From NCBI GenBank assembly GCA_030431975.1, contig JAUIHP010000006.1:186001-250000 (forward strand): DNA of 64,000 nt. The letters run 5' to 3'. The position numbers were made by a program, and so were the translations under genes. The stretch comes from a bacterium (GTDB lineage: Bacteria; Eisenbacteria; RBG-16-71-46; CAIMUX01). The notes under the pieces were generated by a model. The model searched no databases. It was not told the DNA's origin and saw only the letters and a program-made list of their open reading frames with translations. Positions 7,130 through 63,113 of this stretch are shown in pieces. How positions within the stretch are numbered: position 1 is the stretch's first letter; every line of letters starts with the position of its first letter.

Positions 7130-7293
7130 GACATTATCTCCTCGTCAGGTCCCTGAAACCCCTTCAGGGTCATTCCTAGATCTTTCCCTGAGACCCCTAC
7201 GATGGGTGGAAAGTCACCCGCTCGGTCGCGGGATGCTACCTGATAGGAGTCAAAGGAGCAACGAGACCCGGATGGCGGCTCCGTGCACCCGGC

Positions 7294-10200
7294 TCAGTAC
7301 TCAGAGATCCAGTTGAACTCGACTCCGGACTGACTGCGAGGCCCATAAAACGTTTCAAGTCTGAGATGACGGGTCAGCAGGTACTCGAGGTTGACGAGGA
7401 AGTCCGCGCTCGATTGGAGCGCTTGTTCGTATTTGAGAAGGATTCGCGGCGAGAGGTACTTCCCAATGACGAGCGCATTGCCGGAGTTGGGCTGGCTCCC
7501 CTGCTGAACGGAAACGAGATCAACACCGAGTTGCCCACTGAGACGCGCACCGAGCTGGGTCGCTCCGAATCCCGCGGCGACGTCGGCCGCACGACTCTCG
7601 AGAAGTTCCGTCTGATCGTCGTCCAACTGATCGAGCGTGCGTCCCAGCAGAAGAAGCGAGAGGATGTCCCCTTCTTCCATCTGCGGTTCCGAACGAAGCC
7701 GCAGTTGCGGCGAAAGAGCGGTTCCTGTGACCTCGACGAAGACCTGCGTCTCATCGACTCGCGCCTGCAGGACCAGATCGAGATCGGGATCGATCTCGGG
7801 CTCGCCATAGAATCCGACGACTCCCGATTGAATTTCGAAGTAGCGGCCCAGCAGACGGAAGTGGCCGGAGCGGGCCTCGAGGGTTCCGGTCAGGACCGGA
7901 ACTTCCTCGTAGGTCGCGCGAAGACTTCCTTCCAGCTCGACTTCGAGACCACGGCCCCGGATCCAAACGGCGCCGGGAATATCGATCGTGACGTCAAGGT
8001 CGGGAACGATCTCCGCCGGATTGATGGCAGCGCCGGATGTCTGGCCGGACGATGCGGCGACAGTTGAGTCCCGATGGGCAGAGCCGGTCGGCGCGACGAA
8101 ACTCGAGTCCCGATTGGCAGAGCCGGATGGTGAGGAGACACTCCCGTCCCGATTGGCAGGTCCGTAGACGGTCCCTCTTTCGCTGACTCGAAGTTCGAGC
8201 AACCGCGAGCTTCCCTCTGCGGGAAGTAGGTCTTTCTTCGCTTCGGGAACGACGAGCAACCCACTCGCAACGTCGACCTTTCCGGTCACGCGCGGTCGCA
8301 GAAGTGATCCGGACAGATTGAGTCGGGAAGACGCGGCGACGCGCGAACCGTCCGCCAGCTTCGCTTCCAACGCCGTCGCCCGGATCGCGCCTTCCAGGTT
8401 CGGGTTGTCGCGCGGACCGTCCACTTTCAGCGAGACCGTCGCCTGTCCGCGCACACTGAAGTCGGAGGGAAGCAGAGGCTCGAACTCCTGCAGGTTGAGC
8501 TTGTCCGCGGACAGACGTGCGGAGATATCCGCGTCTTCGGGCAGCTCGAGAGAAACCGGATAGAGACTGAGCGCCACCGGCACGCGTGCAGTTCCAACCA
8601 CCAACGAATCGGCCGAAGCCGGCGAGCCGTTGCGCTTCAACGCCGCCAACCGAATGGCCGCCACACCAGACTCGGACGCGTACCGCGCAGTTGCGACCGC
8701 ACGCAACTGCGACATCTCCGGCCAATCGGGAAAGGTCGCCTCGAAATCTCCCTGAAACTGCGGGGCCGACGCCAAACCATCGGCAAGCATCTGGCCGGAG
8801 AGAATCATCTGCTCCGGCTCTTCCTGATCCCGAGCGGGAACGGGGACGGGAAACTCTTTCAAGTCCACGAGAAGTTCGACCGGACCGTCGCCGCCTTCGA
8901 CACGAGTCGGCAGAATCTGTACCGATCCCGGCGCCGCGCCTTTGACCGTCAGAAGCGAGTCGTCCTCTTGCGTCACGAACGCCGACAGAACAAAGCGCTC
9001 GGCTTCGGTTCGAATCTGCGCCTGGGCATCCAAAGGCGTCTTTGTCCAGGGAACTCCTTCCATCAACAGGTCGAGGTTCAAACCCGAAGTTCCCTGCACA
9101 CGGAAGTCCATCCGGACACGCTCGGCCCACGCCCAGTCGGGAAGCTCGAGTTCCTCCGGCCGTTCGGGCAGGCGAAGGTCGGCCGTCGCTTCGAGATCCG
9201 AATCCATGGGCTGCAGAACCCCATCCATCGTGAGCGAACCGATGTCTCCCTCCAGCCGAAGGTCCGCAACCTGGTAGCGCTGGGCAGCCGGATCGACGAC
9301 CAGTTGAAAGACCTCACGACTGGAAAGACTTCGACCGCGAACAACGACGTCGAGAGCGTCTCCCCGAATGCGCCAAACACTCTCGGAGGAATCGGTCGCT
9401 GCCGACTCCACCCAGATGTCGGCGGAGGCGGCCAACTCGGGCCCTTCGGCGCGGAAGGAAAGGTCAACCGGCAGTCCGCTCGACGAAGCGGAGGAGAGGG
9501 ACAACTCCGCCGACGAAACGACCAGAGGCAATCCCGTCACACCGGTGGGAAGATCCAAGTCCGCATCCAATCGGGAGGAGTCCCGTTGAGCGCGCAACGT
9601 CCACGCTTCGATCGCCAGGGGCTCACCGCCTTCTTGCGCTTCGCGGCCGGCGCTCCCCGTCATCGCGACTTCCAACTGAGGATTGTCGGCGGAGCCACCC
9701 ACGACAACAGTGCCGTCGACAGACGCGGAGAGTCCCGCGGTCGGCTTCGGAAACACGGACTTCAACCGATCGAGATCCGCCATTCGAAGCTCGAAGAGCA
9801 GATTGTTGTTCCGCCCCCAGTTTCCACCGCCTTCAAGGTGCGCACCCAACACGGAAAGTTCGGCCCGCTCGACCGCCCACTCTTCGCCGACCTGGGAAAC
9901 GTTCGCGTACAGTGAGTCGAGCCAGGCCTCACCCGCAAGATGCGCGACCAGGTTCAACTGGTCCTTGGACTGCCGGAAATCCGCGCTTCCCCGAATCGAT
10001 CCCAGTCCTTCGGTGTTCGACGAATCCGGGAGGAGCGAGGCCAACGTGTGCGGCCCAGGTAGATCGAGCCGAAGTCGACCTGCCATCGTTTCGCCCGTTC
10101 CCTGAACGTTGCCGGAGACCTTGAACGGCCCGTCCCGACCCCAGGCCTGACGAAGCGTGTCAGCGAGTCCGGGTCGAAGCTCGAGCCGGTCGGAGAGAAT

Positions 10201-43867: not shown

Positions 43868-46800
43868 TTAGTCGCCCGGACCTCCTGATCCCGGCGCGAG
43901 CCAGAAGTCGCGCGGATAGATCCGGTGGAGCTGCGCCCCCGCATCGACACTTCCCAAGTACTGCTGCCACGAAGACAGCTGCGCTTCGGGCCCGATCACG
44001 AAGTAGTTTGCGTTGTGCATCGCGACAGCTTCGGCCGAGCTGGGACCGTAGCCGGGAAGCACAGTGCCGTAGATGTCTTTCATCCGCGAAGCAAGATCCT
44101 GAGGCAGCGCCTTCGAAGCGCCGATCTCCAGAATCCTCTCCCGGAATCCGCTGACCACTTCGGGAGTCAATTCGTCGGCGTAGTCCTCGGCCATGGCTTC
44201 ACCCCGCTCTTCGTAGCGGGAACCGGAGCGAATGCCGACAAACGCCTGCGCGATCGCATACTCGGCCAGGGACGGATCGTCGGGAGCGTTCTCCAACTGT
44301 TCGATGACGAACTTCAACGTTTGCGGAAGGTCCGGACAACGCTCGGCGTAGTAGAGCAGGCGGCCGACGTTTTCATTACTCCGCAGTCCGTTGGAGTAGG
44401 CAAGTCCGGCGGACCAGGTCTTCATGAACATGCTGTGCGCTCCGCCGCCCCCGTAGAGTCGCGCGGCAAGGAATCGCAGAAGTTCTTCCTCATCGCGTTC
44501 GAAGTAACTCGCGCAATCGGAGGTGTGAATATGGACACCGGCCCGTGTGCTTTCGTTGACGAGCCCGACGTAGACCGGAGCCTTTGCGCTCTCTCCCGTG
44601 ATCGCACTCCGCGACGCGAGCCGTGCATTGATCCGCGGGATACCCTCGTACTCGATTCGAGCGGAAGGCGTGGAGTCCAGCTCGGCGATCAGTTCGCCAA
44701 GTTTCTCTCCCAAGAGCGCCGTATCCTCCCGGTTTCCGACAACGAATGCGCGCGCGTTGTCCTGCCGGCGAATGAAGCCAAGCGACTCGTCGAGGCGAGC
44801 CAATGCTACGGTCGGCGGGGTCGCGAGATCCGCCACAATTCGTTCCGCGAGATAGCGCACGTCCTCTTTGAAAGCATCCGGAGACAAGTCGGCCAGGCTT
44901 CGCCTCAGATCCCGAATCGCGCCGTCGATGTGCTCGCCGGCCGATTCCGACAGCCGTGACCGGGCAGCCTTCCAAACAGCCAGGGTGCGAGTCTGTTCGT
45001 CCGCTTCCGTCAAAGCCCCTTCGGACGGCGATTCCGACCCTTCGGCGGCGAGCGCAGTGAGAAGAGCATCGAACTCTTCCCGTGACCCCGCTTCCGGACT
45101 GGTCGCCAAGTCGAGAAGAAACGCTCGCACATCGGCGAGGTCGGACTCGTTCGCTTCCGCAAACAGCCAGCGTAGACGGAGGAGGGCGTGAGTCTGCGTG
45201 AGAAAGGACGCCGCACTGAGAAAGAGCGGATTGTCCTGCCGCCAGTAGGCATCGGCCGGATCCCGAACCCAACTCTCTTCGGAGCGTCGCATGCGATTGC
45301 GAGACGCACCCAAGGCCTGATCGATCGCGTCACGAATCTGGGGAAGGTTGGCTTCATCGTGGTTCGGGCTCAGAAGGATGGTCCGGATCCATCCGAGCGC
45401 ACGAAGACTTTCCGTCTGATCGGTTCCGGATCCGCGGAAGGCAATCTCTGCCCGCTCGGTCCGAGTGTTCGTCGAGAAATAGACGTCGAGGTCGAAGATC
45501 TCCTCCTTCAAACGCCGATCCATCTCGTCGAACGAAACGCGTTTGCCATCTTCGATCGCTCCGACGCCGCGGAACAGAGTCGGCAGTCCGGCAACATAGA
45601 CGAGAAGGGACTCCGGTACCGCGTCCATGCGAAGGGCAAGTCCGGACGTGGCCGCCGTCATGTTGTCGAAGTAGGCCGAAACAAGGTGTCGTTCCGGAGC
45701 GAGCTCCACCGCATCGAAGTCGAGCGCATCGTCGAGGGTCATCGGAGGACTCTCGACGAGAGCGGGGACATCGATGCCCGCTGCGGTCTCGTCAATCTCG
45801 CGAGTCCGCTCTTCATAGTCTCCCTGGTAGCGAACGATCGCCGCGAGATCGCTTTCGACTTCGTACTCGGACCGAAGCTTGGCGGTGAACTCCTGGATGC
45901 GATCCTGGCGCGCCTGCTCACTTCGAGGAATCGCATCCGGGTCGGCCGTAGCTACGGCCACGAAGGGTTCTTTGGAAAGACCCCAATTCGAAAGAAGCTC
46001 TCCCCAGGGATTCCCTTCCGCCTGAAGGACAACCTCCGCAGAATCGAGAACCGACTTGAAGCTCAGGTCTCTGCGGAACCCGCCGACTTCGTGCAGCGCC
46101 TGCATCTTGTCGATGAGCGATGAGCCCTGTCCGCGGTAGCCGAAGCGCGGCGGAGAGTTCAACTCCGTTCGAATGGAGCGTCGACGTTGCAACAGGTTGC
46201 TTCGCGCCTGTGCCTGAAACGCCTCGAGTTCGGTGGAACCCGGTTCCCAGGCTGCCACAGTTTCCAGTGCCTGCATGACGCGGGTGCGAATGGCTCGCAT
46301 CTTTTCCGGCGCGGCGGCCGATGGGTCGATGCCGCTCATGCCGATGTAGAGCGGCTGTCCCAGGTCATCGTCCAACCAACCGAACACGGAGTTGGCACCC
46401 AAGTCCATCTCGCGGGTTCGCGAATCGATGAAAATCTTGTGCAGCGTCGACGTCTGTCCGTTCGCAAACGTCCCGAGGAAGAGGCGCAGCAGTTCCTGTT
46501 GTCCCAGACTCAGATCGCGCTCCGCCGGCCACGACATCAGGTAGACACCGGGTTCGTTCGGATTCTCGTTGGGAAAGTGGGTGTGGAGCACCGATCCCAT
46601 CGGGCTGGGACGCGGCTCGGGAAGACGGTCTTTGGCCGCAGCCGGATCCGTACCGGCCTTGCCATCGGGCTCGACACGCTCCAGAACGTCAGAGAGCCGG
46701 TTCAGACACTCCTCCAGGGTCACCTCTGCACCGATCGAAACCACCGCTCCCATATTGTTCAGGTGGTGAGTGTTCGCGTGAAAGACGCGAATCTCTTCCG

Positions 46801-47542
46801 CCGTCAGGTCGCGAATGCCCTCCGGAGTTCCTCCGGCAGAGTAGGAAAGCGGATGACCATCGCCGTAGATCATCTTCCCCATCTCGAGGAAGAGGTTTCC
46901 CCACGGGCGCTCGAAGGTGCTGACCATCTCGTTGTAGACGGTCCCCTTTTCTTCCAATCGAAGCTCACCATCCGGTCCGTCGGCGACACCCATGTTGCAG
47001 ACCTCGCGACGGATCTCTTCGTCTGAGTAGTTCGGATGGAGCATGGCGTGGAGCTTGGCCTCGAAGAGATCGAAGAAGGTCTGGGATCCGGCCGCGGTGT
47101 TGAAGTGGTAGCAGGTGCGACGTTGCTCGGTGTAGGCCGAGCTGTTGCCAAGCGACATCTCTTCGAGCGACGCCACCCGACGGCCCACGGTTCCCTTTCC
47201 CAAGAGGAGATGTTCAAGAGTGTGCGGCTCGCCCTTGTCCGACGGCGGGAACGAGTTCACCCACATGAAGGCCTGGGGCAGCGACTGGATGCGAAGGACG
47301 TCCAGAACGAAGCGGGTCGGGACGTGGCGGAACCGAGCTCCGATCTCGACACCGGCCTCATTCGTATAGAGTGCTTCCGTCCGAAAGTCGGCGACCCGTT
47401 CATTCGGTTCGAGCTCCGCGAAGTCGACTTCGGCTGCACCCGCGATCGCCGGACTCAGCAGGAACGTGATCGCGGCGACCACCCGCAACCAACGGAGCTG
47501 CGTTTTCCCTTTCAGCCGGGGCAAACCAACATCAGTTCCCAT
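43868..47542 (-). CDS. Exported M16-family metallopeptidase (PreP-like)
   Basis: 1224 residues. Signal peptide (WLRVVAAITFLLSPAIAGA). Inverted zinc motif HxxEH at residues 107-111 (PHTLEHLL) with a further Glu ligand region in EEKGTVYNEM. Four-domain M16C-like length matches presequence-protease-type enzymes that degrade oligopeptides in a closed chamber; the second half lacks a metal site, as expected. Probably periplasmic. ATG 47542 is chosen (GAGGG 4 nt upstream); the longer frame to 47629 is rejected. Lies between the AMP nucleosidase (123 nt) and carbonic anhydrase (176 nt), all on the minus strand. Confidence 0.9.
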   Translation of the reverse strand: MGTDVGLPRLKGKTQLRWLRVVAAITFLLSPAIAGAAEVDFAELEPNERVADFRTEALYTNEAGVEIGARFRHVPTRFVLDVLRIQSLPQAFMWVNSFPPSDKGEPHTLEHLLLGKGTVGRRVASLEEMSLGNSSAYTEQRRTCYHFNTAAGSQTFFDLFEAKLHAMLHPNYSDEEIRREVCNMGVADGPDGELRLEEKGTVYNEMVSTFERPWGNLFLEMGKMIYGDGHPLSYSAGGTPEGIRDLTAEEIRVFHANTHHLNNMGAVVSIGAEVTLEECLNRLSDVLERVEPDGKAGTDPAAAKDRLPEPRPSPMGSVLHTHFPNENPNEPGVYLMSWPAERDLSLGQQELLRLFLGTFANGQTSTLHKIFIDSRTREMDLGANSVFGWLDDDLGQPLYIGMSGIDPSAAAPEKMRAIRTRVMQALETVAAWEPGSTELEAFQAQARSNLLQRRRSIRTELNSPPRFGYRGQGSSLIDKMQALHEVGGFRRDLSFKSVLDSAEVVLQAEGNPWGELLSNWGLSKEPFVAVATADPDAIPRSEQARQDRIQEFTAKLRSEYEVESDLAAIVRYQGDYEERTREIDETAAGIDVPALVESPPMTLDDALDFDAVELAPERHLVSAYFDNMTAATSGLALRMDAVPESLLVYVAGLPTLFRGVGAIEDGKRVSFDEMDRRLKEEIFDLDVYFSTNTRTERAEIAFRGSGTDQTESLRALGWIRTILLSPNHDEANLPQIRDAIDQALGASRNRMRRSEESWVRDPADAYWRQDNPLFLSAASFLTQTHALLRLRWLFAEANESDLADVRAFLLDLATSPEAGSREEFDALLTALAAEGSESPSEGALTEADEQTRTLAVWKAARSRLSESAGEHIDGAIRDLRRSLADLSPDAFKEDVRYLAERIVADLATPPTVALARLDESLGFIRRQDNARAFVVGNREDTALLGEKLGELIAELDSTPSARIEYEGIPRINARLASRSAITGESAKAPVYVGLVNESTRAGVHIHTSDCASYFERDEEELLRFLAARLYGGGGAHSMFMKTWSAGLAYSNGLRSNENVGRLLYYAERCPDLPQTLKFVIEQLENAPDDPSLAEYAIAQAFVGIRSGSRYEERGEAMAEDYADELTPEVVSGFRERILEIGASKALPQDLASRMKDIYGTVLPGYGPSSAEAVAMHNANYFVIGPEAQLSSWQQYLGSVDAGAQLHRIYPRDFWLAPGSGGPGD

Positions 47543-47665
47543 CGATCCCTCTTTCCTATCGCTTCGCATTTGAAGGTGCCTCGTCACTTTGTGGAAGCCT
47601 TCCGTCGGCCGTCTTCGGAACTGGAGCACTTGGTCAGGATGTGCTCCACCGGGACTCGGAAAACA

Positions 47666-50214: not shown

Positions 50215-51285
50215 ATGGAAACAGGTCATCAGGCCATCGCTGCCGCTGGCCCTCGTAAAGCTGATCACCGGCCAACAGCCGTGACTCAAATCAAGGTTTC
50301 CGATGTCGGAACCATCCCAGGAGATCCCAAACCCTTGCCTTCGCTCGTCACTCCCGAGACCAGCCCCAACGCATCGCAACCCGAACGTCATCTCGCGAAC
50401 TCAGGTTCCGGAACTCGTCAAAGCCGCTGGTCCCAGATCATGTGGGCCCGACTGATTCCCTACGTCGCTCTCCATCTAGTGTGTTTTGCGGTCATTTGGG
50501 TTGGCTGGAGTCCTGTCGCCGTCCTCACCGCGGTCGCCCTTTACGTCGTGCGGATGTTCGCCATCACCGGGTTCTACCATCGCTACTTTTCCCATCGGAC
50601 CTTCCGTACCTCTCGCCCCGCCCAGTTCGTCTTCGCTCTGATGGGTGCATCGGCCGCTCAGAAAGGTCCGCTCTGGTGGGCGGCCCATCACCGACACCAT
50701 CATCAGCACTCCGATCAGGAAGAGGACATTCACTCCCCCTCCCTGCAGGGATTCCTGTGGAGCCACGTCGGCTGGATCTGGACGGAAGAGAACTATCGCG
50801 TCCAGGAAACCACCGTTCGGGACTTCCGACGGTTCCCGGAACTCGCGTGGCTGGATCGTCACGCCCTGATTGTCCCCGTGATTCTGGCGGCACTCCTCAT
50901 TGCAGAAGGAGAGCTGCTTGCGCACTTCGCACCGTCCCTGGGAACGAATGGCGCACAAATGTTCATCTGGGGTTTCTGCATCTCGACCGTCGTCCTCTAT
51001 CACGGGACGTACACGATCAATTCCCTCGCGCACGCTTGGGGGACGAGGCGATACCAGACGACGGACGACAGCCGGAACAACTTCCTCCTCGCGCTGCTGA
51101 CCCTCGGAGAGGGTTGGCACAACAACCACCATCGTTATCCCGTGGCGGCGCGTCAGGGCTTCTTCTGGTGGGAGATCGACCTGACCTACTACGGCCTCTG
51201 GGTTCTTTCCAAGCTGGGCATCATCTGGGATCTGCGCGGAGTGCCCGATCGGGTTCGCTTCGAACACATTCCCCGTGAATCCTGA
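50215..51285 (+). CDS. Acyl-CoA/acyl-lipid desaturase (stearoyl-CoA 9-desaturase type)
   Basis: 356 residues. Membrane diiron desaturase: histidine boxes HRYFSH, HHRHHHQH and HNNHH (GEGWHNNHHRYP) in canonical order, with four hydrophobic stretches. Introduces a double bond into saturated acyl chains, supplying substrate for the cyclopropane/methyl fatty acid enzymes downstream. Start uncertain: ATG 50215 gives a long, Pro-rich N-terminus without homologous look; GTG 50281 and ATG 50440-50442 region are possible. Followed after 74 nt by the amine oxidase gene, with a candidate promoter at its stop. Confidence 0.92.
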   Translation: METGHQAIAAAGPRKADHRPTAVTQIKVSDVGTIPGDPKPLPSLVTPETSPNASQPERHLANSGSGTRQSRWSQIMWARLIPYVALHLVCFAVIWVGWSPVAVLTAVALYVVRMFAITGFYHRYFSHRTFRTSRPAQFVFALMGASAAQKGPLWWAAHHRHHHQHSDQEEDIHSPSLQGFLWSHVGWIWTEENYRVQETTVRDFRRFPELAWLDRHALIVPVILAALLIAEGELLAHFAPSLGTNGAQMFIWGFCISTVVLYHGTYTINSLAHAWGTRRYQTTDDSRNNFLLALLTLGEGWHNNHHRYPVAARQGFFWWEIDLTYYGLWVLSKLGIIWDLRGVPDRVRFEHIPRES

Positions 51286-51310: not shown

Positions 51311-51359
51311 GTGAAAGACGGGGATGCACCCGTCTCGCAAAGACCCGAGGTACGTCCGC

Positions 51360-52658
51360 ATGAGAATCGCCATCGTCGGCTCCGGAGTCTCCGGACTCGT
51401 CGCCGCACACGAGCTTCACCAGGACCACGAAATCGTGGTCTTCGAAGCCAACGACTACATCGGCGGCCACACCCACACCGTCACCGTGGACGACCCTCGC
51501 GGTCCACTCGGCGTCGACACTGGCTTCATCGTCTTCAATGACCGGAACTACCCACTGTTCTCACAGCTGCTGAGCGATCTGGGAGTCGATGCTCACGACA
51601 GCGACATGAGCTTTGCCGTCAACTGTGAGAGAACCGGGTTGGAGTACCGGGCGAGTTCGCTGGACACGCTGTTCGCGCAGCGACGGAACCTGTTACGTCC
51701 TTCGTTCTACGGAATGATCCGCGACATCTTTCGCTTCTTCCGCGAAGCGCCCGCCCTACTCGACGAGCCGGATGACTCGACAACCCTAGGCGAGTACCTG
51801 GAACGAAACGGATACTCCGAGCTCTTTGTCGAGAAACACATCCTTCCGATGTGCGCCGCACTTTGGTCGGCATCCAAGGACTCGCTCCGGCGCTTCCCCG
51901 CCCGCTACTTTGTCCGATTCCTGGCCAACCACGGGATGATGGCCCGTCACGGCCGGCCGCAGTGGCGTGTCGTTACCGGCGGATCCGACCAGTACGTTCA
52001 GGCGTTGACCCAGCCCTTTCGGAAGCAGGTTCGTCTGCGGACTCCCGTCCGGTCGATTCGGAGACACGTGGATCGCGTCGACGTCCTCACGGACGATGTC
52101 GGTAGCGAGTCGTTCGACCGGGTCATTCTCGCCGTGCACAGCGATCAGGCGCTCCACCTGCTCGACAACCCGTCCGCCGAAGAACAGGCCGTCCTGTCTT
52201 CGATCCCGTACCAGCGCAATGAGGTCGTTCTCCACACCGATCCGACGATCATGCCCGCGCGACGCAAGGTTTGGGCGGCGTGGAATCACCATGTCCTGCG
52301 GGACTCCAGGGAAGAGGTCGCCGTCACCTACTGGATGAACAAGCTGCAGAGCCTGCAGACGGACCGGGACTACTTCGTCACTCTCAATGCCGCGGACAAG
52401 ATACGCGCAGAGAATGTCCTCGCTTCCTTCACGTATCACCATCCTGTCTTCACCCCGGAGGGAGTTGCGCAACAGCACCGGCAGCCGACTCTCGGAGTCG
52501 GGAATCGAACGCATTATTGCGGGGCCTACTGGGGCTTTGGGTTTCACGAGGACGGTGTCCGGAGCGCACAGCGGGCGGTGGCCTCGTTGCGCAACTTGGC
52601 CACGTCGGAACGTGTCTCGTACGAAGTGGTCAGCGTAGGTCAGGAGTCGATCCGGTGA
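51360..52658 (+). CDS. FAD-dependent amine-oxidase-like protein of the CFA cluster
   Basis: 432 residues. FAD-binding Rossmann start RIAIVGSGVSGLVAAHEL, then the NAD(P)/FAD_8-like region IGGHTHTV and the C-terminal FAD site GNRTHYCGAYWGFGFHEDG. This family is commonly encoded with DUF1365 and CFA-synthase-like genes and acts on fatty-acid or lipid groups, although its chemistry is not defined. ATG 51360 is chosen (GAGG 9 nt upstream); the longer frame from 51324 is rejected. Stop overlaps the DUF1365 start (GTGA). Confidence 0.9.
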   Translation: MRIAIVGSGVSGLVAAHELHQDHEIVVFEANDYIGGHTHTVTVDDPRGPLGVDTGFIVFNDRNYPLFSQLLSDLGVDAHDSDMSFAVNCERTGLEYRASSLDTLFAQRRNLLRPSFYGMIRDIFRFFREAPALLDEPDDSTTLGEYLERNGYSELFVEKHILPMCAALWSASKDSLRRFPARYFVRFLANHGMMARHGRPQWRVVTGGSDQYVQALTQPFRKQVRLRTPVRSIRRHVDRVDVLTDDVGSESFDRVILAVHSDQALHLLDNPSAEEQAVLSSIPYQRNEVVLHTDPTIMPARRKVWAAWNHHVLRDSREEVAVTYWMNKLQSLQTDRDYFVTLNAADKIRAENVLASFTYHHPVFTPEGVAQQHRQPTLGVGNRTHYCGAYWGFGFHEDGVRSAQRAVASLRNLATSERVSYEVVSVGQESIR

Positions 52659-53455
52659 AGTGGCAGAGCGGCATTTATGTCGGCTGGGTCCGACATCGAA
52701 GGTACCTGCCGAAACAGAACTCGTTTCGGTATCCGACCTTCATGATGTACCTGGACCTTTCGGAGCTTCCGAAACTCTTCGACAAGGTTCCGTTTTGGTC
52801 CGCGCGTGGACGCAACGTCGCCGAGTTTCGGCGGAGTGACTACCATGGTCCGCCCGAAGTTCCACTCGAGACTTCGATCCGAGCCTCGGTCCGGGAACGA
52901 ACCGGCGTCGCGCCGACCGGACCCATTCGCATGCTGACCCACATGCGCTACTTCGGGCACTGCTTCAACCCGGTTACTTTCTACTACTGCTACGACGATT
53001 CTGCGACGAGGGTCGAGACGGTGGTGGCCGAGATCGAGAACACTCCCTGGGGTGAACGTCACGCCTACGTGTTGCCGGCGCCCGATGATCAGGAGTCTTC
53101 GACTCTGAAGTTCGGCTTCGAGAAGGACTTCCACGTCTCGCCCTTCCAGGACATGGATCTCCGCTACGACTGGCGATTCCTGGAGCCCTCGGATCGACTC
53201 GCCGTCCACATGAAGAGCTTCGAAGACTCGAAGCTTTCGTTCGACGCCACTCTCTCCCTCCGCCGTGAGGAGATTTCGACGTCGGCGCTTCTCAGGAAAC
53301 TGGCGCGATATCCGTTTCTCACTCTGCAAGTTCTTGCCGCGATCTACGGCCAGGCCGCACGACTCAAGCTGAAGGGCTTTCGCTTCTATCCCCATCCCTC
53401 GAAGCGGGCCCGCGAACTGAACCCAACCAAGGATGCGATTCATGACCACGCCTGA
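52655..53455 (+). CDS. DUF1365 family protein
   Basis: 266 residues. Family signature: GWVRHRRYLPKQNSFRYPTF, then GPIRMLTHMRYFGHCFNPVT with YYC. Enzymatic role is unknown; always found next to CFA and amine-oxidase genes in related clusters. GTG start at 52655 overlaps the upstream stop (GTGA), so translation is coupled. Its 3' end overlaps the following CFA gene by 14 nt. Confidence 0.9.
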   Translation: MKWQSGIYVGWVRHRRYLPKQNSFRYPTFMMYLDLSELPKLFDKVPFWSARGRNVAEFRRSDYHGPPEVPLETSIRASVRERTGVAPTGPIRMLTHMRYFGHCFNPVTFYYCYDDSATRVETVVAEIENTPWGERHAYVLPAPDDQESSTLKFGFEKDFHVSPFQDMDLRYDWRFLEPSDRLAVHMKSFEDSKLSFDATLSLRREEISTSALLRKLARYPFLTLQVLAAIYGQAARLKLKGFRFYPHPSKRARELNPTKDAIHDHA

Positions 53456-54767
53456 CTTTGCCAGAACGATGCCGACCTCCAGCGAAGCAACGGCTCCGGG
53501 TATCTCGGGTGACATCTTCTCGCGGATCTGTCGCTCGGCGTTCCTTCGGATTCTCGGCGATCTCGAGGAGGGCACGCTGACCATTCGGGAGAACGGCCGA
53601 ACGATCACGCTGGATCACGGTCATTCCTCCGCGCGGCCACACAGATCCGGGAGTTCCGAGGCGTCCCTCTCGACCATCATCGACGCGTCCGGCCCTGAGG
53701 CACCCCTCTCGGCAGTCATCGACGTGTCCGACCCTCTGTTCTATAAGGAAGCCCTGCTCCACGGCAGCGTCGGCGCCGGCCGCGCCTACTTCGAGAATCG
53801 ATGGTCGAGTCCAAATCTGGTCGCGGTCATCCAACTCTTCGCCCGGAACGAGAACGTTCTTCGCCGCTGGCGCGAAGGCGCTGCCCGCGTCCTCGCTCCT
53901 TTCCAGTTCCTGTTTCATCGCCTCCGTCGGAACACGAAACACGGAAGTCGCGAGAACATCGGGTTCCACTATGACCTGAGCAATGAACTGTTCGCACAGA
54001 TTCTCGACGAGACCATGACCTATTCCGCCGCTCTCTTCGAGGAAGAGGACACGACGTTGGCCGAGGCGTCGACCGCGAAGCTCGATCGGATCTGTCGGTC
54101 GCTCGAACTTTCCGAACGCGACCACGTCCTGGAGATCGGGGGCGGTTGGGGCAGCTTCGCCATCCACGCTGCGAGGAACTACGGATGCCGGGTCACGACG
54201 ACGACGATCTCACAGGAGCAGTACGAGCTCGCCGTAGACCGAGTGCGCACCGCCGGCCTTGAGGATCAGGTGACCATCGTGCAGAAGGACTACCGCGATC
54301 TCGACGGCACTTACGACAAGATCGCGTCGATCGAGATGATCGAAGCCGTCGGTCACGACTACCTGGAAGGCTACTTCCGGCAGTGTGACCAAAGGCTCCG
54401 CCCCGGCGGACGTTTCTGTTTGCAGGCAATCACGATCCGGGACGAGCACTACGACAAGGCCCGGAAAACTCTCGACTACATCAAGCGCTACATCTTTCCA
54501 GGATCGGACATCCCGTCGCGCGGGATCATCCAGAAGTGTGTCGACAAGGTGACACAGATGGAGTCGGTAGACACGTTCGAGATGACCTACGGATACGCCC
54601 GCACGCTGGCCGAGTGGCGAAAGAACCTACTGCGAAACTCCGACTCCATTCTTCCCCTCGGCTTCGATGATCGCTTCGTTCGGATGTGGGACTTCTACTT
54701 TGCGTACTGCGAGGGAGGATTCCGGGAGTCGAGAATTCAGTGCTGGCAGTTGACGTTTCAGAAGTGA
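53442..54767 (+). CDS. Cyclopropane-fatty-acyl-phospholipid synthase-like methyltransferase
   Basis: 441 residues. Class I SAM methyltransferase of the CFA family: substrate-binding start GFHYDLSNELFAQILDETM, SAM motif VLEIGGGWGSFAIHAA, DYRDLDGTYDKIASIEMIE. By eye against the E. coli CFA synthase, the bicarbonate-site Cys (C139) is Ala here (TYSAAL) and the His corresponding to H266 is Gln (CLQAIT), while the Glu and Tyr look kept. Such changes suggest chemistry other than simple cyclopropanation. Residues about 70-95 hold a short Ser/Ala repetitive insert. ATG 53442 chosen (AAGGA upstream). Confidence 0.92.
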   Translation: MTTPDFARTMPTSSEATAPGISGDIFSRICRSAFLRILGDLEEGTLTIRENGRTITLDHGHSSARPHRSGSSEASLSTIIDASGPEAPLSAVIDVSDPLFYKEALLHGSVGAGRAYFENRWSSPNLVAVIQLFARNENVLRRWREGAARVLAPFQFLFHRLRRNTKHGSRENIGFHYDLSNELFAQILDETMTYSAALFEEEDTTLAEASTAKLDRICRSLELSERDHVLEIGGGWGSFAIHAARNYGCRVTTTTISQEQYELAVDRVRTAGLEDQVTIVQKDYRDLDGTYDKIASIEMIEAVGHDYLEGYFRQCDQRLRPGGRFCLQAITIRDEHYDKARKTLDYIKRYIFPGSDIPSRGIIQKCVDKVTQMESVDTFEMTYGYARTLAEWRKNLLRNSDSILPLGFDDRFVRMWDFYFAYCEGGFRESRIQCWQLTFQK

Positions 54768-55549
54768 TCCTCGCCGCATGGATCACATCCGCCCTCGTCA
54801 TGGCGGGACTCTGGTGGGTTCAGTTGCGGACGCGTAACGCCGGTTGGGTGGACTTTGGATGGACACTCTGCACGGGCGGCATCGGCCTGTGGTACGTCGC
54901 TGGCGGCGGTTCGCCCGCCGTCCCACGGTTCGTGCTTGCCGCGATGCTTCTGATCTGGACGTTCCGACTCGGCCTTCTCCTATGGGGTCGCCTTGTTGGC
55001 GAGGACGAAGACTCGCGCTACGTCGCGTTGCGAGCCCATTGGGGCGAGGCCGCGAACCGGAATCACTTCCTTCTTTTTCAGGGCCAGGCGTTGCTCGCTC
55101 TCGTTCTGGCCGTTCCGTTCTATGTCGCTGCCACGCGGAGCGGACCGAACCTGTCTGTGCCGCAGATGATCGGAGTCGCGCTCTTCGCCATCGGTTGGAT
55201 CGGTGTTTGGATCGCGGACCGGCAGAAGGACGCGTTTCGATCGCGGCCGGAAAACAAAGGGCAGGTCTGCGACATCGGGCTTTGGAAGTACTCCCGCCAT
55301 CCGAACTACTTCTTCGAGTGGATTCTTTGGTGTGGGTTCGGCCTCTACGGCTTCGTCGGCGGCGCCTGGATCAGCTGCGCCGCTCCGCTCGTGATGTTGG
55401 TGTTGCTCGTTTGGGTGACGGGAATCCCGCCGTCGCAGCGGCAGGCCTTGAAGAGACGCGGTGAGCTGTATCGGGAGTACATGAAGAAGACGAGTCCCTT
55501 TGTTCCATGGCCACCACGCCAGTCCGGCACGCGTTCCACGATTTACTGA
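54740..55549 (+). CDS. DUF1295 membrane protein (steroid 5-alpha-reductase-like)
   Basis: 269 residues with about seven membrane helices. The C-terminal LWKYSRHPNYFFEWILWCGF, then YREYMKKTSPFVPWPP, is the NADPH-binding signature of the DUF1295/ERG4-ERG24 superfamily (steroid 5-alpha reductase C-terminal fold). Likely reduces or modifies an acyl or isoprenoid lipid in the inner membrane. GTG 54740 is preferred, overlapping the CFA gene by 28 nt; a longer ATG start at 54686 is possible. Downstream methyltransferase starts 9 nt after its stop. Confidence 0.88.
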   Translation: MLAVDVSEVILAAWITSALVMAGLWWVQLRTRNAGWVDFGWTLCTGGIGLWYVAGGGSPAVPRFVLAAMLLIWTFRLGLLLWGRLVGEDEDSRYVALRAHWGEAANRNHFLLFQGQALLALVLAVPFYVAATRSGPNLSVPQMIGVALFAIGWIGVWIADRQKDAFRSRPENKGQVCDIGLWKYSRHPNYFFEWILWCGFGLYGFVGGAWISCAAPLVMLVLLVWVTGIPPSQRQALKRRGELYREYMKKTSPFVPWPPRQSGTRSTIY

Positions 55550-55558
55550 AGGAGTCGA

Positions 55559-56641
55559 ATGATGTCCGAAGCTCTTACACAAGATGGATCCCCGACGCTC
55601 CCCACCACACCGTGGTACGTGGATGCGATGCAGCGCGGACTTCTTCCGGACGCGCTGGTGCGGTTCGGTATCCGGCAGAAGCTCGCGCAGAGGCTTGCCC
55701 ACGAGCAACGTGGAACGACCGAGGAGCAGAGGCAGCGGATCCAAACTCTGGTTCAACGCCTCCGCAGCAGCCAGGTCGCGATCCATACCGACTCTGCAAA
55801 CAGCCAGCACTACGAGGTGCCGGCTGAGTTCTTCACGAAGGTCCTCGGATCCCACCACAAGTACAGCTGCGCCCTTTGGGAGCCGGATGTAACCACACTC
55901 GACGAAGCGGAGCGCCGGATGCTCGACCTCTACTGTCAAAGAGCGCAGCTTGAAGACCGGCAGAACGTCCTTGATCTCGGCTGCGGCTGGGGATCGTTCT
56001 CGCTCTACGCCGCACCGCGGTATCCGGAGTCAAAGTTCATCGCGGTCAGCAACTCCCATTCTCAACGGGAGTTCATCGAGTCGCGTGCGCGCGAACTCGG
56101 CATCCGCAACCTCGAGGTTCGAACCGCCGACGTCAATCAGTTCGATCCCGGCCGGAAGTTCGACCGGATCGTCAGCGTCGAGATGCTCGAGCACATGCGC
56201 AACTACGATCAGCTCTTCTCCCGCATATCGAGTTGGCTCACGAACGACGGCCGCTTCTTCGTCCATATCTTCACCCACCGGGAGACGCCTTACCTATTCG
56301 AGACGGAAGGCGGGGACGAGTGGATGGCCCAGAACTTCTTCACCGGCGGGATCATGCCTTCGGATCATCTCTTCTATCACTTCCAGGATGATTTGGTGGT
56401 CTATGACCACTGGCGCGTCAACGGAACCCACTACGAGAAGACGTCCAACGCCTGGCTCGCGAATATGGATCAGCGGCGCAGCGAGATCGATCCCGTCCTC
56501 GAGGCCACCTACGGTCCGGCGCGCGTCTCCGTCTGGCGAACGAACTGGAGACTCTTCTTTCTCGCATGCGCGGAACTGTGGGGTTACCGTGGCGGGAATG
56601 AGTGGATGGTATCGCACTACCTGTTTCGGCCCCGTCTATAG
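55559..56641 (+). CDS. CFA-type SAM methyltransferase (coclaurine N-methyltransferase-like)
   Basis: 360 residues. SAM motif VLDLGCGWGSFSLYAA. Keeps the SCALW cysteine, HIFTHR and tail AWLANMDQRRSEIDP, and the FFTGGIMPSDHLFYHFQDDL segment typical of plant CNMT-type enzymes and their bacterial homologues. So it is distinct from the first CFA homologue and may methylate a different double bond or group. ATG 55559 or 55562 follows AAGGAG. The next gene starts about 190 nt later, after a repeat patch. Confidence 0.91.
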   Translation: MMSEALTQDGSPTLPTTPWYVDAMQRGLLPDALVRFGIRQKLAQRLAHEQRGTTEEQRQRIQTLVQRLRSSQVAIHTDSANSQHYEVPAEFFTKVLGSHHKYSCALWEPDVTTLDEAERRMLDLYCQRAQLEDRQNVLDLGCGWGSFSLYAAPRYPESKFIAVSNSHSQREFIESRARELGIRNLEVRTADVNQFDPGRKFDRIVSVEMLEHMRNYDQLFSRISSWLTNDGRFFVHIFTHRETPYLFETEGGDEWMAQNFFTGGIMPSDHLFYHFQDDLVVYDHWRVNGTHYEKTSNAWLANMDQRRSEIDPVLEATYGPARVSVWRTNWRLFFLACAELWGYRGGNEWMVSHYLFRPRL

Positions 56642-56710: not shown

Positions 56711-56782
56711 CTCGCCGGGTGGGCGCGGCTTCCGGGGTGGGCGCGGCTTGCCGAGTGCGTGCGGCCTGTCGGGTGGGAATGG
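56711..56782 (+). repeat. Four 18-bp GC-rich tandem repeats
   Basis: Units at 56711, 56729, 56747 and 56765 share cttgccgggtgggcgcgg, becoming less alike towards the 3' end. They lie between the methyltransferase stop and the GPH gene start. Noncoding unless the GPH gene starts at GTG 56759. Confidence 0.75.
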
Positions 56783-56833
56783 GTCGTTCGCACCAGGCCC
56801 CCGGACCGACGTGAACACCGAGAAGCAACCCAC

Positions 56834-58333
56834 GTGAACTCCGAATCTACCCACGTGACTACGGAATCGTCCCTGGGGAACAACGAGCCTCGTCCCAAAC
56901 GCCTTTCCCGGATCCGGAAAGCCGGGTACGGATCCACGGAACTCGGCCTCGTCGCGGTCGAGGTCCTGGTTCAGGTCTACCTTCTGAAGTTCTACAACGT
57001 CGTCGTCGGACTGCCCGCGGGCCTGACCGGCCTGGCGTTGGCTCTCGGCATCCTGTGGGACGCCGTGACCGATCCCATGATGGGCGCCATCTCCGACCGA
57101 ACCCGCTCGCGATGGGGCCGCCGGCGGCCCTACTTCCTACCCGGCGCGCTCGCGCTGTCGCTGTTCTTCATTGTGCTCTTCAATCCGCCCGCGATGGACA
57201 GCAACGCCGTCAAGTTTCTCTACCTGATCTTCGGATTTCTGCTCGTCAGCACGTCGACCACGGTCCTGTCCGTGCCCCATGTCGCTCTCGGCGGAGAGCT
57301 CAGCTTTGACCGGAACGAGCGCACCGTCATCTACGGATACCGACGGCTCTTCAGCACACTCGGACTCGTATTGGGGACCGCGCTTCCCGCTGCGATCCTC
57401 GCCTATCTCGGAGACGAGTCCAATCCCGACGTCGTGGCGCGATCACGAGGAGTCACCGCGTTCGTTCTCGCCATCCCGATCATGCTGACGGCGTTTCTTG
57501 CCTTCGTTGCGACGAAAGGACGGGACTCCGGCGGCGTGAACCCTGGCCGCTCCCGTCATGCGGAAGCCGAGGCGAATCCCCCCTTCCGGTTTCTCGAACT
57601 CGCACTCGCGCAACGGGACGCTTGGAAGAACAAGATGTTCCTTCCACTGATCCTATCGTTTCTCGTCGCCGGGATCGCACGGACGCTGAACGGCTCGTTC
57701 GCGCTCTACTACTATGAGTACCGGCTTCAGCTACCCGAGTCGTTCGTAGTGCAGAGTATTCTCCTCCCCTTCTTTCTTTCGTTGCTGGTTTCGATTCCGT
57801 TGTGGATCTGGATCTCGCGGCGTTTCGGCAAGAAATGGCCCGCGTTCTGGGGAGCCCTCGGGCTCGGCGTACTCACCGTCGTCTTCTATCCCATCTTTGA
57901 GCCGGGGGAGACAACCGCACCCATCATCGTCGCGTTGGTCGGAGGCATCTTCGCCGGATCGATCGTGCTGCTCGACTCGTTGATCCCGGACACCGTCGAC
58001 TACGACGAGCTGAAGACCGGGCAGAATCGCGAAGGACTGTACTTCGGTGTTTGGAAGTTGGGGACGAAACTCTCTCGTGCGCTGGGGCTTCTCTTTGCCG
58101 GATTGCTGCTGCAGTTGATCGGCTTTCAGGAGGGGGCCGCGACGCAGTCGGAAGAAGTCGGGTGGCGGCTCGCGCTGTTGTTCGGCCCCGGTGTCGGCGT
58201 CTTCTTCGTGATGGCGGCGGTCATCTTTACGACGATGCCGCTGACGGATGAGCGGCATGCGAGGATTCAGCGTTTGCTGAGCCGGAAGAGGGATCGCCGT
58301 CGGGAACGGGAGTTGCAGGACAGCGGTGGGTAG
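56834..58333 (+). CDS. GPH-family (MelB-like) sugar or cation symporter
   Basis: About 499 residues with 12 membrane helices. MFS/GPH features: GILWDAVTDPMMGAISDRTR with the cation-site Asp, RWGRRRPYFL loop, DTVDYDELKTGQNREGLYF in the second half. The family usually transports glycosides; homologues inside singlet-oxygen/CFA clusters may have a lipid-related role. Start uncertain: GTG 56834 without strong ribosome site; GTG 56759 would add 25 residues inside the repeats. Last gene of the cluster, convergent with the photolyase. Confidence 0.9.
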   Translation: MNSESTHVTTESSLGNNEPRPKRLSRIRKAGYGSTELGLVAVEVLVQVYLLKFYNVVVGLPAGLTGLALALGILWDAVTDPMMGAISDRTRSRWGRRRPYFLPGALALSLFFIVLFNPPAMDSNAVKFLYLIFGFLLVSTSTTVLSVPHVALGGELSFDRNERTVIYGYRRLFSTLGLVLGTALPAAILAYLGDESNPDVVARSRGVTAFVLAIPIMLTAFLAFVATKGRDSGGVNPGRSRHAEAEANPPFRFLELALAQRDAWKNKMFLPLILSFLVAGIARTLNGSFALYYYEYRLQLPESFVVQSILLPFFLSLLVSIPLWIWISRRFGKKWPAFWGALGLGVLTVVFYPIFEPGETTAPIIVALVGGIFAGSIVLLDSLIPDTVDYDELKTGQNREGLYFGVWKLGTKLSRALGLLFAGLLLQLIGFQEGAATQSEEVGWRLALLFGPGVGVFFVMAAVIFTTMPLTDERHARIQRLLSRKRDRRRERELQDSGG

Positions 58334-58438: not shown

Positions 58439-60013
58439 TCAACCCCCACCCTTGATCTTGTCATACGCCGAAAGCGCCCGGTCGCGGGCGAATCCGTGTT
58501 CGACCAGCGGCTCCGGGTACGTCTTGCCCAACTTGATTCCCGCCTTCTCGAGAACTTCGTCGGAGGCCTCCCAAGGCGTATGCAGATGCTTGTCATCCAG
58601 CTTGGCGATCTCCGGCACCCACCGCCTGACGTATGCGCCGTGCGAGTCGAACTTCTTTCCCTGCAGGATCGGATTGAAGATGCGGAAGTAGGGCGCCGCG
58701 TCCGCTCCCGAGCCGGCCACCCACTGCCAACCAAGCGTGTTGTTGGCGAGGTCGGCATCGACGAGCGTGTCCCAGAACCACTTCGCACCTTCATGCCAGG
58801 TGATGAGTAGGTGCTTGACCAGAAACGAAGCCGTGATCATGCGCACTCGGTTGTGCATGTATCCCGTGTGCCACAGCTCGCGCATTCCGGCGTCAACGAT
58901 CGGGTAGCCAGTTTGTCCCTTCTGCCAAAGCTTCAGATTCTCGCCGCCGGATTCCCAGGGGAAGTCCGCAAAGTTCTCGCGTAGCGGCTCCCAGGTCGTG
59001 TGCGGGAAGTGATAGAGAAGATGATGTGCGAACTCGCGCCACACGATCTGTCGTAGAAACGCCTGTATGTTGTCGCTGGCCTTGCCGCGCGACTTACGAC
59101 GAAGGGCACTCAGATGATGCCAAAGGTCCCGCGGACCGATCTCGCCGAAATGAAGATAAGGAGACAATCTCGAAACGCCATCTTCGCCCGGAAGGTCGCG
59201 TCGGTCGTCGTACGCTCGGACGCCGTCCTGCGACCACTCCAGGACTCTTTGTCGGGCACCTGGCTCTCCGGGAGTCCATGCTTCGCGCATTCCCCCGGCC
59301 CAGTCGATCTTCGGCAACAGATTCAGGTCGTCGAGTTCGAGTCCATCCGGAAAACCCTTCGGCACGGGGATCTCCTTCGGAACTTCAAAGGCGGGGTGTG
59401 GATCGTCCTTCGCAAGCAATTGCTTGTAGAACGGAGTGAAGACTTTGTACGGATCGCCGGACTGCGTCTCGTGTGCGGTCGGCTCGAAGAGGAGCGACGC
59501 GTTGAAGCTCTTCACGTGAAGCCCGTCGTCCCGAAGAGCCTTCTTGATCTTCGTGTCCCGCTCGATGGCGGCCGGTTCATAGATGCGGTTCCAATAGACA
59601 GCATCCGCTTTGACCGACTTGGCAAGAGAACGCAGCTCGGACAACGACTCACCCGCTCGAAAGATCAACTTCTGGTCGTGCTTCGCGAGTTGTTCCTGGA
59701 GCGACGCGAGTGAGTGATGGAGCCACCAATCGGACGCTTCGCCCGGAGCCCACGGCTCTTCGCTACTGGGATCGTGGATGAAAACACAGACGACACGGTC
59801 TGCTTCGTTGGCGGCTGCAGAGAGAGCTGGGTTGTCGCGAAGGCGAAGGTCACGGCGAAACCAGAGGAGAACGGTATCCGGCGACTCATCCAGCGAGACA
59901 GACCGCGACGTATTCAACGACGCATGCGGCGACGAATCGGCCCCGTCGGTCTCCGATGAAGACTGGGAGGCGTTCTTTTTCTGGCTCGAGGAGTTTGAGT
60001 CCTTTGCGGACAT
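58439..60013 (-). CDS. phr: Deoxyribodipyrimidine photolyase
   Basis: 524 residues. Light-driven repair of cyclobutane pyrimidine dimers, FAD with an antenna chromophore. The first 40 or so residues are a Ser-rich extension not found in typical photolyases; the domain starts at VLLWFRRDLRLRDNP. The FAD domain contains SRLSPYLHFGEIGPRDLW, GYPIVDAGMRELWHTGYMHN and WQWVAGSGADAAPYFRIFNP. ATG 60013 is chosen; the frame extends upstream without support. Convergent with the lipid cluster and stop-to-stop at about 105 nt. Cryptochrome function is less likely since the repair-type motifs are intact. Confidence 0.95.
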   Translation of the reverse strand: MSAKDSNSSSQKKNASQSSSETDGADSSPHASLNTSRSVSLDESPDTVLLWFRRDLRLRDNPALSAAANEADRVVCVFIHDPSSEEPWAPGEASDWWLHHSLASLQEQLAKHDQKLIFRAGESLSELRSLAKSVKADAVYWNRIYEPAAIERDTKIKKALRDDGLHVKSFNASLLFEPTAHETQSGDPYKVFTPFYKQLLAKDDPHPAFEVPKEIPVPKGFPDGLELDDLNLLPKIDWAGGMREAWTPGEPGARQRVLEWSQDGVRAYDDRRDLPGEDGVSRLSPYLHFGEIGPRDLWHHLSALRRKSRGKASDNIQAFLRQIVWREFAHHLLYHFPHTTWEPLRENFADFPWESGGENLKLWQKGQTGYPIVDAGMRELWHTGYMHNRVRMITASFLVKHLLITWHEGAKWFWDTLVDADLANNTLGWQWVAGSGADAAPYFRIFNPILQGKKFDSHGAYVRRWVPEIAKLDDKHLHTPWEASDEVLEKAGIKLGKTYPEPLVEHGFARDRALSAYDKIKGGG

Positions 60014-60550
60014 CGACAGATTCCGTTCGTTAAATCCGCACAGCTCGGCGACGGTCGAACCTCGGGCCGTCCGCATCAACCCTACCGGCTGACGCGTCGC
60101 CTCGCTGAGCGAATCGGGGGGCCCCTCCCGGCCGGGGCTAGGACGGGAGAGGCAGACTCGGCTGCTGGCTCCGAGTCCGAAAACTTGTTTGGTGAGACGT
60201 CGAGTGGTGCGAGTGCATCGGGTGCCGGTGACCTTTCGACGTCTCATAGGGAAGTTCGGGGCCAGCCGGGAGGTTGGATGCGAAAATCGGCCGTTTATCG
60301 AGCGAAGTACCGACTTTTTTTGGGCGGGCTCGTTCGGGGGTGCTCGTGCGGGTTGCTCGCTCGGCGGCGCCCCTTTGGGTGCTCGTTCGGCGCACGACCG
60401 CGGCGAGATCAGTCTCCGTCCGTAGCGGGCTCCTGAATGTCAGGAGATCGACGAAAACCGGATCCTACCGGCTCATCGATCGGGGCGGGATGCCTACCGC
60501 TGAAGGCCTGTGAGTGCCGCAGACGGCCGATGACTCGTCTGGAATGGGCT
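60014..60550. other. Noncoding region with an 11-bp inverted repeat (60193-60246)
   Basis: 537 nt between the photolyase start and the aminotransferase stop, both on the minus strand; it should hold the photolyase promoter. TGAGACGTCGA (60193-60203) is the exact reverse complement of TCGACGTCTCA (60236-60246), 32-nt loop; each arm contains the palindrome GACGTC. Small ORFs here lack family features and are not accepted. Confidence 0.6.

Positions 60551-61967: not shown

Positions 61968-63113
<1,146 letters not shown>

Follow-up and report, generated by a model that had tools for sequence, protein, structure and literature searches.

A cyclopropane fatty acid synthase homologue from an Eisenbacteria genome is probably a UfaM-type methyltransferase with three characteristic active-site replacements

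Introduction

Does the homologue of cyclopropane fatty acid (CFA) synthase encoded in a 64,000-nucleotide stretch of an Eisenbacteria genome (assembly GCA_030431975.1, contig JAUIHP010000006.1, positions 186,001 to 250,000; hereafter the window) close a cyclopropane ring, or does it leave a methyl branch on the acyl chain? Furan fatty acids are antioxidants, and a first step toward them is the methyl branching of membrane fatty acids by UfaM. An earlier sequence-only reading of the gene had reported two residues of the bicarbonate site of E. coli Cfa as lost, and had proposed that the enzyme may make a methyl-branched or unsaturated methyl fatty acid, an intermediate in furan acid formation. 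We find that the protein is very probably a UfaM-type S-adenosylmethionine (SAM)-dependent fatty acyl methyltransferase and not a cyclopropane-making enzyme, judging by its relatives, its residues and its gene neighbours. The UfaM family itself is already known and the window protein is an additional member; our confidence is high for the family and moderate for the mechanism. Family membership, residue pattern and gene order are shown here, and the chemistry of UfaM, UfaD and UfaO is taken from the literature on R. (Cereibacter) sphaeroides and R. palustris.

Results

The window protein groups with the presumed RSP2144, a proven UfaM

The gene encodes a protein with the CMAS domain (PF02353) of the SAM-dependent family to which UfaM belongs (Table 1). 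An in-frame ATG at 53442 offers an alternative start, and it fits equally well because the methionine at position 4 is nearly invariant in a 22-sequence alignment. Residues 94-443 of the protein matched E. coli CFA synthase (phmmer, E 2.9e-48), and an AlphaFold2 model (mean predicted local distance difference test score 87.4; predicted template modelling score 0.86) had the same enzyme as its top structural match (PDB 6bqc; Z 40.9, root-mean-square deviation 1.9, 336 aligned), so that residue positions are comparable with those of E. coli Cfa. This structural match gave overall scores and no residue-level alignment; the residue equivalences used below, in E. coli numbering, are taken from pairwise and multiple sequence alignments. 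Against the NCBIfam equivalog for Cfa (NF008686), the protein scored 260.2 bits and fell short of the cut-off of 400. In the window's genome (97% complete), only two CMAS proteins score above cut-off, and both are encoded in this operon; two weaker matches fall below it, and no further Cfa was found.

We compared 96 proteins: the window protein, E. coli Cfa and those of 94 loci, which came from 23 named genomes, 9 relatives, 30 members of the class of a Parvularculaceae genome (G071; taken as Alphaproteobacteria; the best-matching loci where 219 of 289 genomes gave a hit), 2 of one family there, and 30 members of the class of a Marinomonas genome (G060; Gammaproteobacteria; likewise the best-matching loci where 87 of 143 genomes gave a hit, with L122 among them UfaM-type). 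Proteins were assigned as UfaM-type (64) or Cfa-type (32) by their best-matching query in BLASTP, and the 64/32 set is biased through this best-match sampling. Before counting, we set aside L001-L004 and L039-L056 as weak or own matches, and L029 and L057-L058 as window or second matches; L024, a 649-amino-acid (aa) open reading frame (ORF), was counted and left out of the tree.

The PufL of one genome in the set (G460) is 100% identical to a PDB reaction-centre L sequence that we take to be that of R. sphaeroides. ORFs in line with the only DUF1365 match of G460 are 186 and 245 aa long, as Lemke et al. give for RSP1088 and RSP1087 (PMC7380195). Because of the PufL identity and these ORF lengths, G460 is taken as Cereibacter sphaeroides and its single homologue (E < 1e-10; L094/L140) as RSP2144, the UfaM that converts cis-vaccenate to 11Me-12t-18:1 (PMC7380195). 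In a quick, rather than careful, maximum-likelihood tree of 95 rows, 63 UfaM-type rows, including the window protein and L094, fell on one side of a branch (Shimodaira-Hasegawa-like approximate likelihood ratio test support 99), so the window protein groups with a proven UfaM and not with Cfa. A smaller catalytic-domain tree also placed the UfaM-type rows in one group (support 98). The Cfa-type rows did not form one group there; three of them (L121, L123 and L125), with G236, H240 and H266 kept, joined UfaM and the mycobacterial enzymes (support 97). The window protein and the RSP2144 homologue are identical at E236, E239, A240, Q266, I268 and Y317, and differ at position 139, where the homologue has Ser and the window protein Ala.

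Three positions separate UfaM-type from Cfa-type proteins

All UfaM-type proteins carry Glu, Ala and Gln at positions 236, 240 and 266, respectively (64/64 in the 96-protein alignment). Among Cfa-type proteins, G236 is present in 30/32, H240 in 30/32 and H266 in 31/32, and none shows all three changes together (0/32). A scan of the E. coli-residue columns (at least 90% within UfaM and at least 85% within Cfa, with at most 1 and at most 2 crossings, respectively) found only four that switch cleanly between the types, namely 173 (D to E), 236, 240 and 266; its groups were defined via 236 and 266, and the BLASTP split yields identical counts. Several Cfa-type proteins depart from a simple rule: L118 has A236 and A240, L119 has D236, L117 has Q240, L112 has M268 and L038 has Q266 alone. 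The last of these weakens H266Q as a marker on its own. L038 (L141:5406-6473) is a Cfa-type protein of the window's own order in which H266Q is the sole change among seven positions, and no UfaD or UfaO match was found in the 14-kb stretch that contains it.

The sequence-only reading had identified C139 as Ala and H266 as Gln in the window protein, and both alignments agree with it (Ala199 and Gln331). The change at 266 is not a chance one, since Q266 is found in every UfaM-type protein and in 1/32 of the Cfa-type. Position 139 fares less well, and we rejected it as a UfaM marker: Cys occupies it in 32/32 Cfa-type proteins but is also present in 9/64 UfaM-type proteins, and in the mycobacterial MmaA1 and MmaA4. 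That reading had overlooked G236 (Glu301) and H240 (Ala305), both of which switch as cleanly as H266Q. The role of C139 in the bicarbonate site of Cfa is through its backbone. In CFA synthase, bicarbonate deprotonates the methylated intermediate to form the ring and is contacted by the side chains of E239, H266 and Y317 (PMC11387697). The earlier observation is therefore correct, although its wording of two lost residues goes too far, since H266 alone among these three ligands is altered in the window protein: E239 (Glu304) and Y317 (Tyr388) are kept, as is I268 (Ile333). The full set of side-chain ligands that would mark a Cfa is nonetheless incomplete.

The accompanying argument from loss of the Cys and the His is only partly right, given the 9/64 UfaM-type proteins that keep the Cys. 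Loss of the bicarbonate site seems unnecessary for methyl branching, because MmaA1 keeps both residues and, in work on 10-methyl fatty acids, conservation in the bicarbonate site was a reason for choosing the bfa methyltransferases among Cfa homologues (PMC7791843). C139 and H266 are thus not the best markers for the UfaM family, and the argument is better put as the joint replacement of G236, H240 and H266. We found no publication on the G236E/H240A/H266Q signature in a search that covered subscription literature poorly, so its novelty is unproven; the terms 'bicarbonate' and 'active site' are absent from PMC7380195, as is 'bicarbonate' from PMC10876521.

The methyltransferase gene lies in a UfaD-UfaO-UfaM run

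Genes for a UfaD-like and a UfaO-like (DUF1365) protein lie directly upstream of the methyltransferase gene, so all three types occur in the same genome, and the gene ends overlap within the run. The same order was found in 20/23 named loci; the exceptions are L022 and L025, which are UfaM-type without UfaD or UfaO matches in the stretch, and L028, which is Cfa-type. With many flanks only 1.5 kb long, a UfaO match was present in the flank of 50/64 UfaM-type and 0/32 Cfa-type proteins. Between the window UfaO-like protein and the DUF1365 protein encoded by the presumed C. sphaeroides genome, identity is 34-35%, and UfaD is described as NAD-FAD-binding (PMC7380195), NAD and FAD being nicotinamide and flavin adenine dinucleotide. 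As separate observations, the genome of L022 (G069) has no DUF1365 match, and a methyl-branched acid may be its end product unless the genome is incomplete; the genome of L025 (G071) has DUF1365 matches elsewhere.

Known furan-pathway systems resemble this arrangement to differing degrees. In R. palustris, RPA2569-2571 (ufaM, ufaO and ufaD) suffice for production of 9M5-furan fatty acid in an R. sphaeroides triple mutant (PMC7380195); compared by description, these are three genes with consecutive tags and of the same types as in the window, which adds a desaturase, a DUF1295 protein, a second methyltransferase and a transporter. In Halomonas sp. YLGW01, ufaM, ufaD and ufaO are consecutive, and its ufaM gave an 11-methyloctadec-12-enoate peak in E. 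coli (PMC12089945); again by description, ufaM adjoins ufaD and ufaO as in the window. C. sphaeroides differs in that ufaM lies apart from ufaO there, whereas the window has all in one run, but both have a photolyase-like gene near ufaM (in L140, a photolyase-like ORF at 6444-7931 adjoins ufaM at 7965-9176). The C. elegans enzyme FCMT-1, a CFA-related methyltransferase that places a methyl branch on cis-vaccenate, is compared with UfaM by its authors (PMC10876521); it is an animal enzyme, likened here to the window UfaM by description only. E. coli Cfa (6bqc) shares with the window protein its fold, E239, I268 and Y317, and differs from it by C139A, G236E, H240A and H266Q, by tree group and by gene neighbourhood. 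The earlier proposal of a methyl-branched unsaturated product en route to furan acids is supported by the clade, by the identical residues of the RSP2144 homologue and by the UfaD-UfaO-UfaM order.

Mycobacterial relatives share parts of the signature

In Mycobacterium tuberculosis, MmaA1 is a methyl-branching enzyme and MmaA4 (Hma) forms a hydroxy-methyl product; neither is known to make a cyclopropane. MmaA4 shows G236E and H266Q, as does the window protein, and keeps H240 and Cys139. MmaA1 shows G236E and H240A, likewise as in the window protein, keeps H266 and Cys139, and has Asp at 239. In CmaA1, PcaA and MmaA2, cyclopropane synthases by their PDB titles, G236, H240 and H266 are all kept. 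MmaA4 and MmaA1 thus each share part of the signature with the window UfaM but retain Cys139 and belong to a separate tree group: in the catalytic-domain tree they occupy two distinct places among the mycobacterial enzymes, both remote from UfaM, and because of these separate positions their changes look independent. The retention of H266 by MmaA1, and of G236 and H266 by UmaA alongside A240, goes against a simple residue rule. The G236E mutant of E. coli Cfa reportedly gives methyl-branched unsaturated fatty acids; it bears the same G-to-E change as the window protein, as a single change in a Cfa background.

Neighbouring genes and other features of the window

The features of the locus are collected in Table 1.

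Table 1. Genes of the methyltransferase locus and active-site codons of the UfaM-type protein, in window coordinates
Feature	Position	Strand	Evidence
Fatty acid desaturase ORF	50215..51285	+	PF00487 77.2 bits; upstream of ufa genes
UfaD-like FAD/NAD-binding amine-oxidase-type oxidoreductase, predicted methyl-fatty-acyl desaturase	51324..52658	+	PF01593
UfaO-like DUF1365 protein, predicted furan-forming oxygenase	52655..53455	+	PF07103 271.8 bits; start inferred from overlap with UfaD stop
UfaM-type SAM-dependent fatty acyl methyltransferase (probable)	53433..54767	+	444 aa; PF02353 265.9 bits (Pfam); start 53433 or 53442
Ala199 (E. coli C139)	54027..54029	+	alignments; Ser 38, Ala 16, Cys 9, Gly 1 across the 64 UfaM-type proteins
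Glu301 (E. coli G236)	54333..54335	+	alignments; Glu in 64/64 UfaM-type
Glu304 (E. coli E239, kept) and Ala305 (E. coli H240)	54342..54347	+	Ala305 column Ala in 64/64 UfaM-type
Gln331 (E. coli H266)	54423..54425	+	Gln in 64/64 UfaM-type, 1/32 Cfa-type
Tyr388 (E. coli Y317, bicarbonate ligand kept)	54594..54596	+	alignments
DUF1295 protein	ORF 54686..55549	+	PF06966 200.4 bits; PF02544 (Steroid_dh) 28.3 bits, weaker
CMAS2, second CMAS-family methyltransferase, coclaurine-N-methyltransferase-like	55559..56641	+	PF02353 152.2 bits; 6gkv E 2.7e-84
MFS_2 (GPH-type) transporter, possible last gene	56759..58333	+	PF13347 278.9 bits
Photolyase/cryptochrome-like gene	58439..60247	-	best NCBIfam matches cryptochrome/photolyase models; 4/5 below curated cut-offs, phr2 too

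The desaturase had two PDB sequence matches at E up to 0.01, both acyl-CoA desaturases (4ymk and 4zyo), and a homologue lies upstream of the ufa genes in 3/23 named loci (L012, L013 and L021). It is a candidate source of the cis double bond. If it is a delta-9 enzyme, the methyl group and the furan would lie nearer the carboxyl end, giving a positional isomer of the known 11-methyl compounds.

Downstream, the DUF1295 ORF overlaps ufaM, therefore its true start is probably later than 54686. DUF1295 and CMAS2 occur together in 6/23 named loci, not always on the same strand; these belong to Planctomycetota, Myxococcota, Bdellovibrionota and Pseudomonadota, and three also have a desaturase (two Planctomycetota, one Pseudomonadota). 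CMAS2 proteins cluster on their own (13 sequences, support 100), and 13/13 have E236, H240, H266 and F268. In the alphaproteobacterial class, 6/142 genomes had a CMAS2 match (E up to 1e-40), with a DUF1295 or UfaD match in its short flank in 6/6, one of these being a short match at the edge. CMAS2 is also related to plant coclaurine N-methyltransferase. FufM (RPA0924) of R. palustris performs the second methylation in the furan fatty acid pathway (PMC7380195), and by description CMAS2 is likewise a second diverged SAM-dependent methylase, in a predicted furan fatty acid producer. CMAS2 is a candidate for a FufM-like second (furan) methylation. Furan fatty acid genes accordingly occur in clusters with extra genes: a desaturase, DUF1295 and a second methyltransferase.

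A MerR-family regulator with a long repeat-rich middle (61968-63113, minus strand; Pfam match to MerR only) adjoins aminotransferase and photolyase-like genes. Light induces ufaM and phrB in Pseudomonas mendocina, with LitR regulators as the probable route (PMC9758184). With regard to singlet-oxygen regulation, the ChrR-type cupin PF12973 had no match in the window's genome, and Rfam had none at gathering score within the 64-kb window. A relaxed sigma-E-like pattern, another sign of such regulation, was not enriched in the window (8 found; mean of 12.15 in shuffles). An ORF on the minus strand (43868-47629; 1253 aa) contains an HxxEH motif in its translation, a motif linked to zinc peptidases. 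Among the matches listed, relatives of 42-48% identity occur on seven plasmids of Acinetobacter and in a Klebsiella pneumoniae record of 550 kb, where the match touches an annotated DUF1365 gene.

Discussion

Three other products have to be weighed against that of a UfaM. If the enzyme left a methylene-branched chain and the upstream FAD protein reduced it to a saturated methyl branch, the pathway would be of the 10-methyl/10-methylene kind known from Bfa/Tmp operons. A CFA homologue does lie near a FAD-protein gene in the bfa operons (PMC7791843), and the FAD gene of the window is two genes upstream. The gene between them, however, encodes a DUF1365 protein of the furan oxygenase type, the window protein groups with the RSP2144 homologue, and it has H266Q with E239 and Y317 kept, whereas Bfa methyltransferases were selected for bicarbonate-site conservation (PMC7791843); with the Bfa/Tmp set compared by description only, we consider this pathway improbable.

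It is still less probable that the protein is a cyclopropane synthase that tolerates the changes and closes the ring all the same. Its closest solved structure is that of E. coli CFA synthase, E239, Y317 and I268 are kept, and H266Q occurs alone in the Cfa-type L038, but the tree group, the operon and the RSP2144 homologue all point to UfaM, and the three changes are found together in no Cfa-type protein. A hydroxy-methyl product, with water capturing the cation as for mycobacterial Hma (MmaA4), would be in line with the G236E and H266Q common to MmaA4 and the window protein, yet MmaA4 keeps H240 and belongs to another tree group, and RSP2144, whose homologue has the window's residues, makes an alkene (PMC7380195). 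We regard this outcome as the most doubtful of all.

Some observations nevertheless weigh against assignment as a UfaM. The product of the window enzyme is a predicted one, and the enzyme shares only 37.0% of 397 aligned residues with the RSP2144 homologue. Since E239 and Y317 are kept, bicarbonate might still bind. The UfaD-like label comes from PF01593 and gene order, and the stretch of RSP1091 reads N. In addition, the flanks of 14/64 UfaM-type proteins, mostly 1.5 kb long, show no UfaO match, so UfaM may occur away from UfaO.

How would a UfaM of this fold avoid ring closure? The product of UfaM is methyl-branched and its double bond, now trans, has shifted, therefore the proton must leave a CH2 of the chain. 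In the window enzyme, the proton would be lost from the neighbouring chain CH2; the new methyl group would keep its own, no cyclopropane would form, and a trans double bond would end up next to the methyl branch. Glu236, Ala240 and Gln266 may redirect the deprotonation. The likely product is thus a methyl-branched trans-unsaturated acyl chain, which the UfaD-like and then the UfaO-like protein would desaturate and oxygenate to a furan fatty acid. As nearby substitutions fixed in the UfaM-type proteins compared, the three changes are natural candidates for a deprotonation switch. We tentatively propose, with somewhat less than even confidence, that UfaM is defined by coordinated G236E, H240A and H266Q replacements that divert deprotonation from the new methyl, that Glu236 takes the place of bicarbonate or itself serves as base for the CH2 of the chain, and that Hma and MmaA1 reached parts of this set separately.

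With three positions separating the 64 UfaM-type from the 32 Cfa-type proteins, genes labelled 'cyclopropane-fatty-acyl-phospholipid synthase' could be re-annotated by sequence. The signature also offers a mutagenesis test of the choice made by one fold between ring closure and methyl branching: if the proposal is true, exchange of the three residues should make a methyl-branching enzyme out of a cyclopropane synthase, and the reverse.

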